Of a DNA stretch of 10,327 nt, positions 5,116 through 10,080 are shown in pieces. A program made the position numbers and the translations under genes. Where the stretch lies: assembly GCA_902772625.1 (NCBI GenBank), contig CACYBP010000237.1:1-10327 (forward strand). The letters run 5' to 3'. Numbering within the stretch: the first letter of the stretch is position 1; the number at the start of each line of letters is the position of its first letter. The stretch comes from Oscillospiraceae bacterium. Its GTDB lineage: Bacteria; Bacillota; Clostridia; Oscillospirales; QAMX01. The notes under the pieces were generated by a model. That model was given only the letters and a program-made list of their open reading frames with translations. It ran no database searches and was not told the origin of the DNA.

Positions 5116-5144
5116 ATTATACACAACTCGCCTCTTTTTGTAAA
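5116..5144 (-). promoter_or_regulatory. Sigma-A promoter of the minus-strand operon
   Basis: On the minus strand, TTTACA (5144-5139) is followed by a 17-nt spacer and a perfect TATAAT (5121-5116). The expected transcription start is near 5109, about 105 nt before the TTG start. It lies in the only AT-rich stretch of the divergent intergenic region and is close to consensus, so constitutive strength should be high unless the leader limits it. Confidence 0.85.
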
Positions 5145-5187: not shown

Positions 5188-5217
5188 TTGACGGAAGGGC
5201 GGGGATCCGGATATAAT
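5188..5217 (+). promoter_or_regulatory. Sigma-A promoter of the deacetylase gene
   Basis: TTGACG (5188-5193), an 18-nt spacer, then a perfect TATAAT (5212-5217). The predicted start near 5224 leaves a short leader of about 45 nt before the GTG at 5270. The promoter faces away from the minus-strand operon promoter, about 45 bp distant. Confidence 0.8.
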
Positions 5218-5269: not shown

Positions 5270-5992
5270 GTGAAGAAATACAAAAAAGCCCTGACCTTCA
5301 GCTACGACGACGGCGTCCGGCAGGACGAAAGGCTGATCGGTCTTTTCAACGCCTACGGCATGAAGGCGACCTTCAATCTCAATTCCGCCCTGCTCGGGAA
5401 GGAGGGGAGCCTGGTCCGCAACGGCGTGGAGATCCGCCACGACAAGGTCGATCCGGGAAGGGTCCGCTCGCTTTACCGGGGGCACGAGATCGCGGGGCAC
5501 ACCCTGACCCACCCCATGCTTCCCTCGCTTCCCGACGAAGAGGTGCGGCGGCAGGTGGAGGAGGACCGGCTCGCCCTTTCGGAGCTCGCGGGGTACGAGG
5601 TGCGGGGCATGGCCTATCCCGGCGGCGGACAGAACCACGACGACCGGGTGGCCGGGATCGTCCGGGAAAAGACCGGCGCGGAATACGCCCGGACCATCGT
5701 GTCTTCTTACTCCTTCAGGCCCGAGACCGATCTTTATAAGCTCCGCCCCACGGTTTATCACCTGGAATTTGAAAAGGTCGAAAGCCTGATCGACGCCTTT
5801 CTCGCCTCTGAACCCGAGACCCCGGAGATCTTTTATATCTGGGGGCACAGCTACGAATTCGACGCCTGGGATTTCTGGGACAGATTCGAGGGGTGGCTCA
5901 AAAAGCTTTCGGGAAAGGACGATATCTTTTACGGCACCAACCGGGAGGTTTTGCTTTCCGACGCGTGGCACGGGGGCAAAAACGATTTGTGA
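5270..5992 (+). CDS. NodB-homology (CE4-type) polysaccharide deacetylase, apparently cytoplasmic
   Basis: A predicted metal-dependent hydrolase removing acetyl groups from a sugar or related substrate; the actual substrate is unknown. The protein is 240 residues. CE4 motifs are in order: SYDDG at 11-15 (catalytic base Asp13, metal ligand Asp14), HTLTH at 77-81 (metal ligands His77 and His81), RGMAYPGG at 112-119 as the third motif, and WGHSYEF at 191-197 with a late His193. It begins MKKYKKALTF with no signal peptide or membrane anchor, so it should stay inside the cell, unlike peptidoglycan and chitin deacetylases. I recall similar proteins grouped with a gellan-lyase-like NodB subfamily, but this was not checked. 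The start is GTG 5270, with AAAGGAG 9 nt upstream. It is a single-gene unit between two promoters, so neighbours give no clue to substrate. Confidence 0.85.
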   Translation: MKKYKKALTFSYDDGVRQDERLIGLFNAYGMKATFNLNSALLGKEGSLVRNGVEIRHDKVDPGRVRSLYRGHEIAGHTLTHPMLPSLPDEEVRRQVEEDRLALSELAGYEVRGMAYPGGGQNHDDRVAGIVREKTGAEYARTIVSSYSFRPETDLYKLRPTVYHLEFEKVESLIDAFLASEPETPEIFYIWGHSYEFDAWDFWDRFEGWLKKLSGKDDIFYGTNREVLLSDAWHGGKNDL

Positions 5993-6023: not shown

Positions 6024-6048
6024 AAAGCCCCTTGACAAGCGGCTTTTT
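6024..6048 (+). terminator. Possible terminator of the deacetylase gene, overlapping the next -35 box
   Basis: AAAGCC (6024-6029) pairs with GGCTTT (6041-6046). Inside it, CTT (6031-6033) can pair with AAG (6037-6039) across a C/C mismatch. A five-T tract (6044-6048) partly forms the stem. It is modest as a terminator but is the only candidate after the stop at 5992. The TTGACA of the next promoter lies within its loop, so the same dyad could instead be an operator. Confidence 0.4.
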
Positions 6049-6060
6049 CTGTGGTAGCCT
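6032..6060 (+). promoter_or_regulatory. Promoter of the ABC exporter leader and operon
   Basis: A consensus TTGACA (6032-6037) is followed by 17 nt and TAGCCT (6055-6060). The -10 is poor (three of six), but it is preceded by TGG in the extended -10 position. The expected start is near 6067, about 45 nt before the small ORF and about 290 nt before the first ABC gene. Confidence 0.65.
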
Positions 6061-6111
6061 ATCAGCGTCGGGCTTTCCGGCCCGAAAAATCGTGAGAAAG
6101 GAGCGGGGAAA

Positions 6112-6207
6112 ATGAGAAATCGCGGCGGAAACGAGAAAAAAGACGAGAGAGAAGCGCGCGCGGCAAAGCGTCTTTCTCTGCATTTTCCCGGCCTTTTCCC
6201 GGACTGA
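6112..6207 (+). CDS. Small ORF, candidate leader peptide of the ABC exporter operon
   Basis: ATG 6112 to TGA 6205-6207 encodes 31 residues. AAAGGAG (6097-6103 region) sits about 8 nt upstream, as good as any site in the window. The peptide starts MRNRGGNEKK, is strongly charged in the middle (eight Lys or Arg in the first 20 residues) and ends FPGLFPD. It has no membrane segment or signal peptide and matches no family I recognise. Its stop codon lies inside hairpin 1 of the leader, so a ribosome finishing or stalling here would cover the following structures. It sits where B. subtilis bmrB sits relative to bmrCD, but I see no sequence similarity to claim. A purely structural RNA with a chance ORF remains possible. 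Confidence 0.5.
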   Translation: MRNRGGNEKKDEREARAAKRLSLHFPGLFPD

Positions 6208-6273
6208 AAAGCCAGTCCCTGCGGAAGGCAAAGGGGGATAACGACCTGCCTTCCGGACGAAAAACGCAGTTTT

Positions 6274-6305
6274 GTCCCCGGCAGGAGATGCCGGGGACTT
6301 TTTTT
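6274..6305 (+). terminator. Strong intrinsic terminator inside the exporter leader
   Basis: GTCCCCGGCA (6274-6283) and TGCCGGGGAC (6289-6298) form a perfect 10-bp stem with a five-base GGAGA loop, followed directly by seven T's (6299-6305). It lies between the promoter at 6032-6060 and the first ABC start at 6360. No promoter-like sequence stands out between 6306 and 6345, so it must be read through for exporter expression. Confidence 0.9.
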
Positions 6306-6359: not shown

Positions 6360-8189
6360 ATGAACCGTTCAAAAGGCAGCCTCAGGCGCATATGGTTCTT
6401 CATGAAAGGACAGAGGCTTGCTTATATCGGCGCCATCATTCTGGTGATCGTGAACGTGGGGCTTCAGTACGTGGGCCCGCTGATCACCTCCTGGACCATC
6501 GACCGGATCATCACCGGGGGCGACATGGCGGTACCGGGATTCGTGGAAAGCTTCGTAAAGAGCATCGGCGGGCGGGAGACCGTGGCCTCCAACCTGTGGA
6601 TCTGCGCGCTGGCCCTGGTGCTGATCACCGCCCTGCGCGGCGTGGGAAGCTTTCTGCAGTCCAAGCTTCTCACCACCGCCTCGGAGCACACGGTGAGAAG
6701 GATCAAGGATTCGCTCTATTCCCACATCCAGGATCTGCCCTTTGATTATCACGTCAAGGCCGAGACCGGCGACCTGATCCAGAGATGTACGACAGACGTG
6801 GAGACCGTGCGCCGGTTCATCTCGGGACAGCTGGTGGAGCTATGCCGCGGGATCTTCATGCTTCTGGTGGCGCTTTTTATTCTGGGAAGAGTCAGCATGA
6901 CCCTGACCCTTCTCTCGCTGGTCCTGATGCCCTTCGCGATCCTCTTCTCCTGGGGCTTCCACAAGAGCGTGTCCAAGCAGTTCAAGATCGTGGACGAGGC
7001 CGACGGCGCCATGTCCACGGTGCTGCAGGAAAACCTCACCGGCGTGCGCGTGGTGCGCGCCTTCGGAAGACAGGAGTTTGAACGGACGAAGTTCTTTTCG
7101 GCCATCGAAAAGCTTTTCACCTCGGCCCACAGGCTCAACAACATGTTCGCCTTCTTCTGGAGTTTTTCGGACTTCACCGCCGTGGCCCAGCAGGGCGTGA
7201 CCCTGTTCGGCGCCATGTACTACGTGATCGAAAAGGGCATGTCCTACGGCAACTTCCTGCTCTTCAACTCCTACGTGGGCATGCTGATCTGGCCGCTGCG
7301 CCAGCTGGGGCGCGTGCTTTCGGACGCGGCGAAGATGTCCATCGCCATGGGGCGGATCGACGAGGTGCTCTATGAAAAGAGCGAATTCGCCGACGAGACC
7401 CCGGAAAACACGAAAAAGCCCCCGATCCGCCGGGATATCGATTTTTCCCACGTTTCCTTCTCCTACGACAGCCTCGAGGTGCTCAAGGACGTCTCCTTCC
7501 ACGTGAAGGCGGGGGACACCGTGGCGATCCTCGGCCCCACCGGCAGCGGGAAATCCACCCTGGTGCACCTCCTGCAGCGGCTTTACGACGTGCGGGAGGG
7601 AAAAATCACCATCGGCGGCGTGGATATCCGCTCGATCGACCGGCACTATCTCAGAAGCCGCGTGGGCATCGTCCTGCAGGAGCCCTTCCTTTATTCCCGC
7701 TCCATTGAGGAAAACATCGCCATCACCGGGGATTCCCCCGATCCCGAAAAGGTGCGGGAGGTCGCCCGCGCCGCCGCGGTCCACGACGTGATCGAGTCCT
7801 TCGAAGAGGGTTACGACACGGTGGTGGGCGAACGCGGCGTGACCCTGTCGGGCGGACAGAAGCAGCGGGTGGCCATCGCCCGCACCCTGATGAAGGACAA
7901 CGATATCCTGATCTTCGACGATTCGCTCTCGGCGGTGGACACCGAGACCGACGCGAAGATCCGCAAGGAGCTTGAGGAGCGCTCGTCCGACGTCACCACG
8001 TTTATCATTTCCCACCGGATCAGCACCCTTTCCTCGGCCGACCAGATCCTGGTCCTGGAGGACGGGCGGATCACCGAAAACGGCACCCACGAGGAGCTGA
8101 TCGCCCGGGAAGGCATGTACAAGCGCATCTACGAGATCCAGAACGCGGTGGAGACCGCCGAAAGAGAGGAGGGAACCATCGATGCCTAA
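6360..8189 (+). CDS. ABC exporter half-transporter, degenerate-site subunit (BmrC/TM287-like)
   Basis: Predicted half of a heterodimeric multidrug or lipid exporter in the cytoplasmic membrane. The 609 residues comprise an N-terminal six-helix ABC exporter membrane domain (about 15-335) and an NBD (about 358-590). The NBD has Walker A GPTGSGKST 392-400, Q-loop Gln440, canonical signature LSGGQ 496-500, Walker B ILIFD 516-520 and H-loop His552. Asp521 stands where the catalytic Glu is expected, so this Walker site should hydrolyse ATP poorly; its intact signature completes the partner's active site. ATG 6360 has AAAGGAG 8 nt upstream. The in-frame ATG 6288 is rejected because it lies in the leader terminator. 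The 3' end overlaps the next gene by 8 nt. Regulation is probably through the attenuator upstream. The substrate cannot be read from sequence; drug export is inferred from the family. Confidence 0.93.
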   Translation: MNRSKGSLRRIWFFMKGQRLAYIGAIILVIVNVGLQYVGPLITSWTIDRIITGGDMAVPGFVESFVKSIGGRETVASNLWICALALVLITALRGVGSFLQSKLLTTASEHTVRRIKDSLYSHIQDLPFDYHVKAETGDLIQRCTTDVETVRRFISGQLVELCRGIFMLLVALFILGRVSMTLTLLSLVLMPFAILFSWGFHKSVSKQFKIVDEADGAMSTVLQENLTGVRVVRAFGRQEFERTKFFSAIEKLFTSAHRLNNMFAFFWSFSDFTAVAQQGVTLFGAMYYVIEKGMSYGNFLLFNSYVGMLIWPLRQLGRVLSDAAKMSIAMGRIDEVLYEKSEFADETPENTKKPPIRRDIDFSHVSFSYDSLEVLKDVSFHVKAGDTVAILGPTGSGKSTLVHLLQRLYDVREGKITIGGVDIRSIDRHYLRSRVGIVLQEPFLYSRSIEENIAITGDSPDPEKVREVARAAAVHDVIESFEEGYDTVVGERGVTLSGGQKQRVAIARTLMKDNDILIFDDSLSAVDTETDAKIRKELEERSSDVTTFIISHRISTLSSADQILVLEDGRITENGTHEELIAREGMYKRIYEIQNAVETAEREEGTIDA

Positions 8190-10080
8190 GATCAAGGAAG
8201 AGGAATTTACCGACAAGAAAGTAGATATCCGGATGTGGGGCAAGATCCTCCGCTACGCCCGTCCCTTCTACAAGTACATCGCGGCGGTGTTCCTGTTTAT
8301 GAGCCTTTCCTCCTTATGCGACGTGGTGAACCCCCTGATCATGTCGCATCTGATCGACCACAATCTGGTCCCCCGGTCCTGGGAGGGCGCGCCGCTCTAT
8401 ATCGGGCTTTACGCCTTCGTGACGATCTTCCAGATCGGCACCACCTACGGCTTCATCCGCTCGGCCAACGCGGTGGAGCTGAACCTGACCACCCGGATCC
8501 GGAAGCTGGCCTTTGAAAAGCTCCAGACCCTGTCTTTCTCCTATTACGACAAGACCCCGGTGGGCTATATCATGTCCCGGCTCACCAGCGACGCGCAGAG
8601 GCTTTCGGACACCATCGCCTGGTCCTGCGTGGATATCTTCTGGAGCGTGGTGTTCATGCTGATCGCGGCGGGAGTGATGCTGGTCTCCAACTGGCAGCTC
8701 GCCCTGCTCCTGATCGCCACCACCCCCTTCATCGCGGTGATCAGCTATTTCTTCCAGAAGGTGATCCTGAAAAACCACCGTCTGGTCAGAAGCGCCAACT
8801 CCCAGATCACCGGCGCCTTCAACGAGGGCGTCATGGGCGCGAAGACCACCAAGACCCTGGTCCGGGAGGAGGCCAACAACAAGGAGTTTTACGGCCTGAC
8901 CCGGAACATGCAGACCTACAGCGTCCGCGCTGCGGTGTTCTCCGCGGTCTACTGGCCCATCATCATGACCATCGGCAGCATCGGTACCGGCATGATCCTG
9001 TGGGTGGGCGGCACCGGCGTGATCGGGAACCTGATCACGCTGGGCGAATTCAGTTTCTTCATGACCCTGGGCGGATATTTCTTCGAGCCCATCAACAACC
9101 TCGCCCGGATCTTCGCCGAGGTGCAGTCGGCCCAGGCCGCGGTGGAACGGGTCATCACCCTGATGGACACGAAGCCGGACATCGTCGATCCCCCCGCGGT
9201 GACCGAGGTCTACGGCGACGAATTCCGGGGGAAGACCGAAAACTGGCCGGCCCTTTCGGGCGACGTGGCCTTCCGTGACGTGACCTTCCGGTATAAGGAC
9301 GGGCAGACGGTGCTGCGCCACTTCAACCTTGAGGTGAAGCGGGGCGAAAAGATCGCCCTGGTGGGCGAGACCGGCAGCGGAAAGTCCACCATCGTCAACC
9401 TGATCTGCCGCTTCTACGAGCCCACCGAGGGAAGGATCGAGATCGACGGGGTCGATTACCGGGAGAGAAGCCAGCTCTGGCTCCACTCCAATCTGGGCTA
9501 CGTGCTCCAGTCGCCGCAGCTTTTCTCGGGCACCATCCGGGAAAACATCCGCTACGGCCGCCTCGACGCCACCGACGAAGAGGTGGAGGAGGTGGCGCGC
9601 ATGGTGGACGCCGACGGGTTTATCTCGAAGCTGGAAAAGGGCTACGACACCCAGGTGGGCGAGGGCGGCGGACGCCTTTCCACCGGGGAAAAGCAGCTGA
9701 TCTCCTTCGCCCGGGCGATCCTGGCGGATCCCGCGATCTTCGTCCTGGACGAGGCGACCTCCTCGATCGACACCGAGACCGAGGCCATGATCCAGCGCGC
9801 CATCGAAAAGGTCCTGGCCGGGCGCACCAGCTTCATCATCGCCCACCGCCTTTCCACCATCCGGTTCTGCGACCGGATCCTGGTGATCGACAAGGGCGAG
9901 GTGGTGGAGGAGGGAAGCCACAGAGAGCTGATGGAAAAGCGAGGCCGCTACTATTCGCTTTACACCACCCAGTTCAGAAACGAGCGCGAGGCCGAGGGCC
10001 TTTCGGCCCTGGGCATCCTTGAAAAGACCGAAGAGGAAGAGGAGACCGGCAAAGAGTCCTACGCCGAGCCTGAGGAATAA
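8182..10080 (+). CDS. ABC exporter half-transporter, catalytic-site subunit (BmrD/TM288-like)
   Basis: The second half of the heterodimeric exporter, 632 residues. A membrane domain (about 20-325) is followed by an NBD (about 358-600). The NBD has Walker A GETGSGKST 395-403, Q-loop Gln443, Walker B IFVLD 519-523 with normal catalytic Glu524, and H-loop His555. Its signature is LSTGE (499-503) instead of LSGGQ. That signature faces the first subunit's Asp521 site, so both defects fall in one ATP site, as in TM287/288. An N-terminal extension of about 20 residues (KIKEEEFTDKK) and an acidic C-terminal tail after about 600 (EKTEEEEETGKE) are typical low-conservation ends. ATG 8182 has GAGGAGGG 8 nt upstream and overlaps the previous stop, giving coupled, equal synthesis. 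The operon ends at the terminator 14 nt downstream. Confidence 0.93.
   Translation: MPKIKEEEFTDKKVDIRMWGKILRYARPFYKYIAAVFLFMSLSSLCDVVNPLIMSHLIDHNLVPRSWEGAPLYIGLYAFVTIFQIGTTYGFIRSANAVELNLTTRIRKLAFEKLQTLSFSYYDKTPVGYIMSRLTSDAQRLSDTIAWSCVDIFWSVVFMLIAAGVMLVSNWQLALLLIATTPFIAVISYFFQKVILKNHRLVRSANSQITGAFNEGVMGAKTTKTLVREEANNKEFYGLTRNMQTYSVRAAVFSAVYWPIIMTIGSIGTGMILWVGGTGVIGNLITLGEFSFFMTLGGYFFEPINNLARIFAEVQSAQAAVERVITLMDTKPDIVDPPAVTEVYGDEFRGKTENWPALSGDVAFRDVTFRYKDGQTVLRHFNLEVKRGEKIALVGETGSGKSTIVNLICRFYEPTEGRIEIDGVDYRERSQLWLHSNLGYVLQSPQLFSGTIRENIRYGRLDATDEEVEEVARMVDADGFISKLEKGYDTQVGEGGGRLSTGEKQLISFARAILADPAIFVLDEATSSIDTETEAMIQRAIEKVLAGRTSFIIAHRLSTIRFCDRILVIDKGEVVEEGSHRELMEKRGRYYSLYTTQFRNEREAEGLSALGILEKTEEEEETGKESYAEPEE

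Follow-up and report, generated by a model that had tools for sequence, protein, structure and literature searches.

In Bacillus subtilis, the leader ORF bmrB precedes the bmrCD genes, which are induced by translation inhibitors; blocked translation of the leader lowers expression, and three alternative structures lie within nucleotides 60–162 of the 162-bp leader ORF (PMC4191407; this and the other accounts of known systems given here draw on parts of the cited papers). The vmlR gene of the same species encodes an ABC-F factor. Stalling on its upstream ORF (uORF) blocks an anti-antiterminator and thereby allows the antiterminator, and the SD and start codon of the uORF are needed for induction. 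The uORF has three codons and lies inside the anti-antiterminator hairpin, its SD is single-stranded before that hairpin, and the SD of vmlR itself is sequestered by another hairpin (PMC9226507). The mef(E)/mel efflux genes of Streptococcus pneumoniae are preceded by a leader ORF with AGGAGG and a stem round it. Upon ribosome stalling a distal repeat pairs with the terminator, and the stall is set by the MRLR of a conserved macrolide stall peptide, MTASMRLR (PMC4335068). In Clostridioides difficile, the ABC-F gene cplR follows a three-codon uORF (MRI) and is controlled mainly by translational attenuation, together with transcriptional attenuation (PMC10201436). Finally, Naville and Gautheret predicted 205 attenuator candidates ahead of ABC transporter genes, termed ABC-leaders, one of them before a multidrug export operon of lactobacilli; the section on these leaders gives no leader ORF or ribosome model and leaves the mechanism open (PMC2965389).

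The window analysed here is the whole stretch of 10,327 nucleotides, which is an entire contig from a draft genome of 2.08 Mb, 86% complete, of an uncultured gut Clostridia bacterium. Its nearest named relatives are draft genomes labelled "Clostridia bacterium" (from goat omasum, horse faeces, and water buffalo caecum) and "Oscillospiraceae bacterium", whose exporters are 81–91% identical to its own. A leader region follows a polysaccharide deacetylase gene and precedes a pair of ABC exporter genes that overlap, and we consider it probable that this leader is a ribosome-sensing transcription attenuator. The features of the locus are as follows.

5270–5992: polysaccharide deacetylase gene, preceding the leader (domain search)
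6032–6060, plus strand: predicted promoter, TTGACA at 6032–6037, a 17-nt spacer, and TAGCCT at 6055–6060 after TGG (extended −10) (sequence; genus conservation)
6068–6085, plus strand: hairpin by the expected 5′ end of the transcript (fold; the other genus leaders fold a hairpin there from other letters)
6096–6114, plus strand: strand A, the SD region and start codon of the leader ORF, partner of B (duplex test)
6112–6207, plus strand: predicted leader ORF of 31 codons, MRNRGGNEKKDEREARAAKRLSLHFPGLFPD, with ATG at 6112, TGA at 6205–6207, and the SD AAAGGAG
6181–6199, plus strand: strand B, the 3′ part of the leader ORF (about codons 24–30), partner of A or C (folds, duplex test)
6201–6218, plus strand: hairpin spanning the leader stop codon, nested in the B:C helix (folds; 4 of 5 genus leaders)
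6222–6238, plus strand: strand C, the 5′ arm of the predicted anti-antiterminator hairpin, partner of B or D (C:D from pair changes, B:C from folds only)
6245–6262, plus strand: strand D, the 3′ arm of the anti-antiterminator hairpin (6248–6255) and the 5′ side of the predicted antiterminator, partner of C or E
6270–6285, plus strand: strand E, the 3′ side of the antiterminator, overlapping the 5′ arm of the terminator (6274–6283) (D:E from pair changes)
6274–6305, plus strand: intrinsic terminator E:F, a 10-bp stem and seven T (sequence scan; genus alignment)
6360–8189, plus strand: ABC exporter half-transporter 1, degenerate ATP site (Pfam PF00664, ABC_membrane, and PF00005, ABC_tran)
8182–10080, plus strand: ABC exporter half-transporter 2, canonical ATP site, its start overlapping the end of gene 1 (Pfam PF00664 and PF00005)

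The initial annotation of this DNA had named a promoter, a small ORF preceded by a strong SD, hairpins, and an intrinsic terminator that has a perfect 10-bp stem and a run of seven T, and all of these were confirmed in the sequence and its folds. The −10 element TAGCCT agrees with TATAAT at just three of six bases, and was therefore missing from a simple promoter scan. A further hairpin (6222–6255) folds between the leader ORF and the terminator, which begins 66 nt past the end of the ORF. The terminator stem (6274–6298) pairs at all ten positions round a loop of 5 and is followed by T at 6299–6305. Of 22 terminator-like sites that the scan listed for the window, this one has the longest stem; the site count by itself means little because shuffles yield 12.7 such sites. 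The leader (6067–6305) folds at −101.9 kcal/mol compared with −82.9 (sd 4.75) in 200 shuffles, none of which was as good (z −4.0), and the part from 6200 to 6305 at −49.7 compared with −32.9, with no shuffle equal (z −4.9). The distance from the T run to the exporter ATG at 6360 is 54 nt, and the simple scan listed no promoter between them, in agreement with the spacing of about 55 nt and the absence of an evident second promoter noted at first.

The layout is the same in all five sampled genomes of the window's genus (exporters 81–100% identical to the window's): promoter, SD with short ORF, terminator, and exporter follow in this order, so that the leader is conserved upstream of orthologous exporters, as the initial reading requires. 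These five leaders represent about three independent lineages. TTGACA and the 17-nt spacing were kept in all five, with TAGCCT, TAGCCT, TAATCT, TATGCT, and TATGCT as the −10 elements. The leader ORFs have 31, 31, 23, 24, and 24 codons, and their letters and peptides differ widely.

The exporter was called heterodimeric from the outset, and the protein sequences agree with this: both halves carry ABC_membrane and ABC_tran, and the first has FDDSLSAVD where the second has LDEATSSID, which we take to mean one degenerate and one canonical ATP site. The pair thus looks heterodimeric. Neither half reached the NCBIfam cut-off of any family among the best 25 listed (of 186 and 187). In a comparison with PDB, the best matches overall were to eukaryotic ABCB1 (464 bits), followed by Sav1866, TmrAB, BmrCD, and TM287/288 with similar scores (Sav1866 300 bits, TmrB 299, BmrC (YheI) 292, and TM288 289). 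The exporter is generally of the multidrug type, and only in that sense; its substrate assignment is putative. In one draft genome, the exporter ORF next to genus leader L006 (G017:C323) holds one in-frame TAG inside the matched exporter frame. Elsewhere in the window, two strong promoter-like sites with 11 of 12 matches each (5116–5144 on the minus strand and 5188–5217 on the plus strand) point apart between the deacetylase gene and a minus-strand gene, which from its translation is presumably cysteine-desulfurase-like.

The model that we propose for the leader runs as follows. Transcription would start near 6067, and a ribosome would load on the leader ORF. With no ribosome, A would pair with B, C:D would form, and E would be left free; the terminator E:F would then form and transcription would stop. 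A ribosome running normally to the end of the ORF would cover B, and C:D and then E:F would form, again stopping transcription. A ribosome held on A by an early stall would free B to pair with C, releasing D; D would pair with E, the terminator would be blocked, and the exporter genes would be read. The model presumes that transcription and translation are coupled, and we infer that translation inhibitors would be the signal and would be removed by the exporter. Most relatives outside the genus probably use a shorter chain, in which A pairs with B and B acts straight on the 5′ arm of the terminator. The sign of the response would be unchanged in the window's genus, since the two added strands, C and D, are an even number.

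The first pairing, A with B, is found across the leaders. In the window, the A:B duplex reaches −24.1 kcal/mol compared with −15.6 in shuffles (p=0.005), and A pairs better with its own B than with the ORF end of any of the 76 unlike leaders used for comparison. When the interiors were shuffled, the real A:B outdid 95% of the shuffles (p≤0.05) in 46 of the 61 leaders and, among the held-out ones, in 16 of 22; p was above 0.05 in the other 15 of the 61, and 0.095 in L006. When real ORF ends of leaders with unlike SD stretches were offered instead, the leader's own partner was within the best 5% in 48 of 83. In relatives whose exporters are about 50% identical, the SD stretch A (for example AGGAGGCCGCAAA, AGGAGGCUUCGGA, AGGAGGCUGCGC, AGGAGGUCGUGA) matches B, a complementary stretch in the 3′ part of the ORF; B in turn is complementary to the 5′ arm and loop of the terminator as well. 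Duplex, shuffle, and cross-leader tests were used for A:B and B:C because alignments misplaced strands A or B: in the genus alignment, strand A of L006–L008 is out of register, and a MAFFT alignment of 23 leaders misplaced strand B in L041, L044, L046, and L067. No pair counts were taken from the latter, and those from the genus alignment were restricted to C:D, D:E, and E:F.

Two later helices of the chain, C:D and D:E, covary in the genus. Covariation of the leader across relatives had been suggested as a check at the start. In the alignment of the five sequences, C:D was kept through two-sided changes at 3 of 8 pairs, with 79.5% of cells paired and at most 56.4% when slid; sliding by +1 also gave three two-sided changed pairs, but in fewer cells (4 compared with 6) and with pairing of 53.8%. 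D:E was kept through two-sided changes at 4 of 14 pairs, with 82.9% of cells paired and at most 47.8% when slid. The antiterminator D:E overlaps the terminator E:F, and the two helices are exclusive; the terminator stem hardly varies and is paired in 92% of cells. B:C, on the other hand, was not above shuffles in any of the five genus leaders (p 0.15–0.63) and is the weakest link of the chain. When the start was masked, four of the five, including the window, folded B onto C round the stop-codon hairpin and left D free for E.

The alternative that survives best is that only the short chain operates, with B or another upstream stretch acting directly on the terminator arm of the window and C:D serving as a pause site or spacer instead of a switching part. 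We regard this as possible, though distinctly less likely than the longer chain. Relatives outside the genus mostly use this form: pairing of B with the terminator arm was better than shuffles in 33 of 56 of those leaders, and pairing of B with the stretch between stop codon and terminator in 5 of 56. Within the genus, L006 with its start masked folds B straight onto the terminator arm and not onto C, and two of the five leaders show a significant match of B to that arm. Against it, C:D and D:E covary, B goes onto C in the masked folds of the other four, and the window's own B shows no such preference for the terminator arm (p=0.40). Compared with the arms of other leaders, the match of B to its own terminator arm was within the best 5% in 21 of 83 (median 0.15), which is weak overall, and in the genus it was no better than the match to the arms of others. 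The gap from stop codon to terminator is 62–67 nt in the window's genus, compared with 13–40 nt in 48 of the 56 other leaders. In L012 (G147:C154), a leader from another family of the window's order, B folds onto the 5′ arm of a hairpin past the stop codon when the start is masked; this fold suggests that the longer chain may be older than the genus.

The effect of ribosome position was computed for transcripts cut at the terminator loop, as the free-energy cost of keeping the 5′ arm of the terminator unpaired. For each leader, we chose as terminator whichever hairpin was strongest among those that have a T-rich tail and lie at most 135 nt from the ORF stop, and four states were modelled: no ribosome, a ribosome at the start, slightly further (P site near codon 5), and at the stop. 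The model treats the ribosome as a mask that makes RNA unavailable and ignores RNA polymerase and NusA/NusG. Over 61 leaders, the median cost was 5.4 kcal/mol with no ribosome, 10.6 at the start, 10.9 slightly further, and 3.8 at the stop. The cost at the start exceeded that with no ribosome by more than 1 kcal/mol in 55 of the 61 and fell below it by more than 1 in one. This difference averaged +5.29 kcal/mol compared with −0.20 in shuffles, and in 37 of the 61 it was larger than in every one of the leader's own 20 shuffles. In the 22 held-out leaders it was +4.96 compared with −0.13, and positive in all 22. The contrast between start and stop is partly trivial, as more free RNA can pair; that between start and no ribosome is not, because shuffles do not show it.

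Over successive tenths of the ORF (83 leaders), the excess over no ribosome was 5.2, 5.7, 5.9, 6.0, 5.2, 2.4, 0.1, −1.1, −1.5, and −1.9 kcal/mol. Since sequestration is thus up by 5–6 kcal/mol in the first half of the ORF and then falls, an early stall is predicted to give read-through, and a stall close to the stop codon, like a finished or absent ribosome, to give termination. For the window alone the contrast is small: 7.7 kcal/mol with no ribosome, 8.4 at the start, 10.8 slightly further, and 6.4 at the stop, and the profile climbs again at codons 25–31. The window's contrast was not beyond its own shuffles (11 of 20 beaten at the start, 18 of 20 further on). Its genus mates beat 19, 18, 19, and 20 of 20 shuffles at the start. 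What we propose for the window thus depends largely on its relatives, whose contrast is clearer.

The layout was also sought more widely, by scanning 400 nt upstream for an SD-preceded ORF of 12–80 codons followed by a terminator. After removal of duplicates and of upstream regions under 300 nt, 129 exporter regions remained. The layout was found in 50 of 66 regions of close exporter relatives (tblastn score at least 540, a cut picked after seeing the data) and in 11 of 63 lower-scoring ones; the SD strings and the number of shuffles were likewise chosen by us. A held-out set of upstream regions fetched later (36 loci, 33 regions) gave 22 of 33. The scan did not detect the layout in 16 of the 66 close relatives and 11 of the 33 held-out regions. 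Among other ORFs of the same loci, which are mechanical ORFs with an SD and of putative gene status, it was found ahead of 5 of 132, or 2 of 129 once three regions holding the exporter's own leader were set aside (L038 and L068 start at the exporter itself, and L058 is another frame just inside it). Genomes with the layout span 14 family labels of the search tool (f1, f7, f29, f32, f46, f47, f64, f66, f71, f74, f103, f114, f120, and f126). Searches for relatives by order gave few new genomes, and a second search by class drew nearly the same sample.

It is very improbable that the exporter is read from elsewhere and that the terminator is the ordinary end of the upstream gene, or the leader a small RNA in its own right. 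Intergenic terminators are common, and the leader has a weak similarity to Spot_42 (E 0.011, under the gathering score); yet a conserved promoter of its own precedes the leader, none is listed by the scan past the terminator, and the layout is rare ahead of other ORFs. In addition, the gene before the leader is a polysaccharide deacetylase in the window but, in L006 and L007, the end of a gene with an HCHFEV motif, which we take to be of a peptidase type. Leader and exporter thus stay together though the neighbour changes. In eight leaders (L101, L102, L103, L105, L113, L121, L126, and L127), two tandem terminators lie between leader and exporter, often with a common core CCAUAGG ... CCUAUGG or CCUGUGG. 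The second might be a second gate.

A ligand-binding riboswitch or a protein-bound leader that merely carries a short ORF would equally show strong alternative structures and a terminator ahead of a transporter, and the ABC-leaders were left open as possible riboswitches in the relevant part of the earlier report (PMC2965389). We consider this explanation highly unlikely as well. Searches with Rfam covariance models gave no match at the gathering score in the window and 27 related loci; relaxed matches, all below that score, went to terminator-bearing RNAs (Spot_42 as the best, and anti-hemB) and were discarded. There is no conserved unpaired core: the letters vary freely while SD, ORF, and pairing persist, and the first strand of the chain is the SD of the leader ORF.

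The leader peptide does not appear to be what is kept. One DNA stretch serving as B, TTTTGCGGCCGCC, is read as CAFLRPP in some leaders and as CGRL in others, in different frames; in the leader ORFs of L042–L060 and L068, the stretch TTTTGCGGCC(GCC) is read in two frames, as CAFLRPP or CGRL, by species. Reading of B in different frames in different leaders points to a constraint on the RNA and not on the peptide. An R/K-X-R/K pattern, the spacing of known macrolide arrest peptides, occurred within leader residues 2–13 in 24 of the 61 discovery leaders against 12.4 (sd 2.5) expected, with other spacings at expectation. It is present in the window (MRNR) and L005 and absent in L006–L008. The held-out leaders did not reproduce this enrichment (6 of 22, with 4.4, sd 1.7, expected), and no claim is made for the motif. 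Attenuation by amino-acid supply, as for trp or his, has the same general layout, and a His_leader match lies at chance level (E 4.8); it is the least probable explanation of all, because the leader peptides listed hold, by eye, no run of one regulatory codon, the peptides are not conserved, and the downstream genes are exporters.

We give an even chance to the wider proposal that these leaders form an undescribed, widespread class of exporter attenuators in Clostridia. In such a class, the sensor strand would be the SD of the leader, and the position of the ribosome, not the peptide, would set the switch, telling a held ribosome from an absent or finished one. The chain would grow by two strands, from A-B-C-D to A-B-C-D-E-F, keeping its sign while its letters change. 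In the open-access papers searched, no title or abstract was found that describes such a leader, and the parts of PMC11109978 and PMC8632094 used here name no exporter uORF of such kind. If the proposal is true, exporter genes of many gut Clostridia would be kept ready behind a switch that senses ribosomes arrested early, and the switch would have no Rfam match and be hard to see by similarity since only pairing and layout are kept. A rule for finding it would be to look for a short ORF whose SD is complementary to the ORF's own 3′ part, with that part in turn complementary to a stretch downstream. It would also mean that a regulatory RNA can gain strands in pairs with the direction of its response unchanged.

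Compared with the known systems, the predicted arrangement resembles bmrB in its plan, with a short leader ORF, a terminator, an antiterminator, and an anti-antiterminator before a heterodimeric ABC exporter (PMC4191407, in the part cited). The bmrB-like attenuation first proposed for this DNA is well supported by computation as a kind of mechanism, by the layout in 5 of 5 genus genomes and the sign of the energy difference in 55 of 61 and 22 of 22 leaders, but a likeness to bmrB in detail is not supported: here the terminator (6274–6298) lies outside the ORF, which ends at 6207, and the SD of the leader serves as a strand of the chain. BmrC is not a closer relative of the exporter than Sav1866, TmrAB, or TM288 are. 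The predicted logic, in which a stall on the uORF leads to the antiterminator, is that of vmlR; in the present leader, unlike in vmlR, the SD is paired, with strand B as its partner, and the gene is an exporter and not an ABC-F factor. In contrast to mef(E)/mel, the leader peptides vary. The ABC-leaders share with it a predicted attenuator ahead of ABC transporter genes. Like cplR, it would be a clostridial uORF-dependent attenuator; premature termination and antibiotic induction are reported for cplR (PMC10201436, in the part cited); here termination is predicted from sequence, and antibiotics may be the inducers. The leader would thus work like bmrB and vmlR but without the defining anatomy of either, and the use of its own SD as a strand of the anti-antiterminator arrangement seems to set it apart from both.
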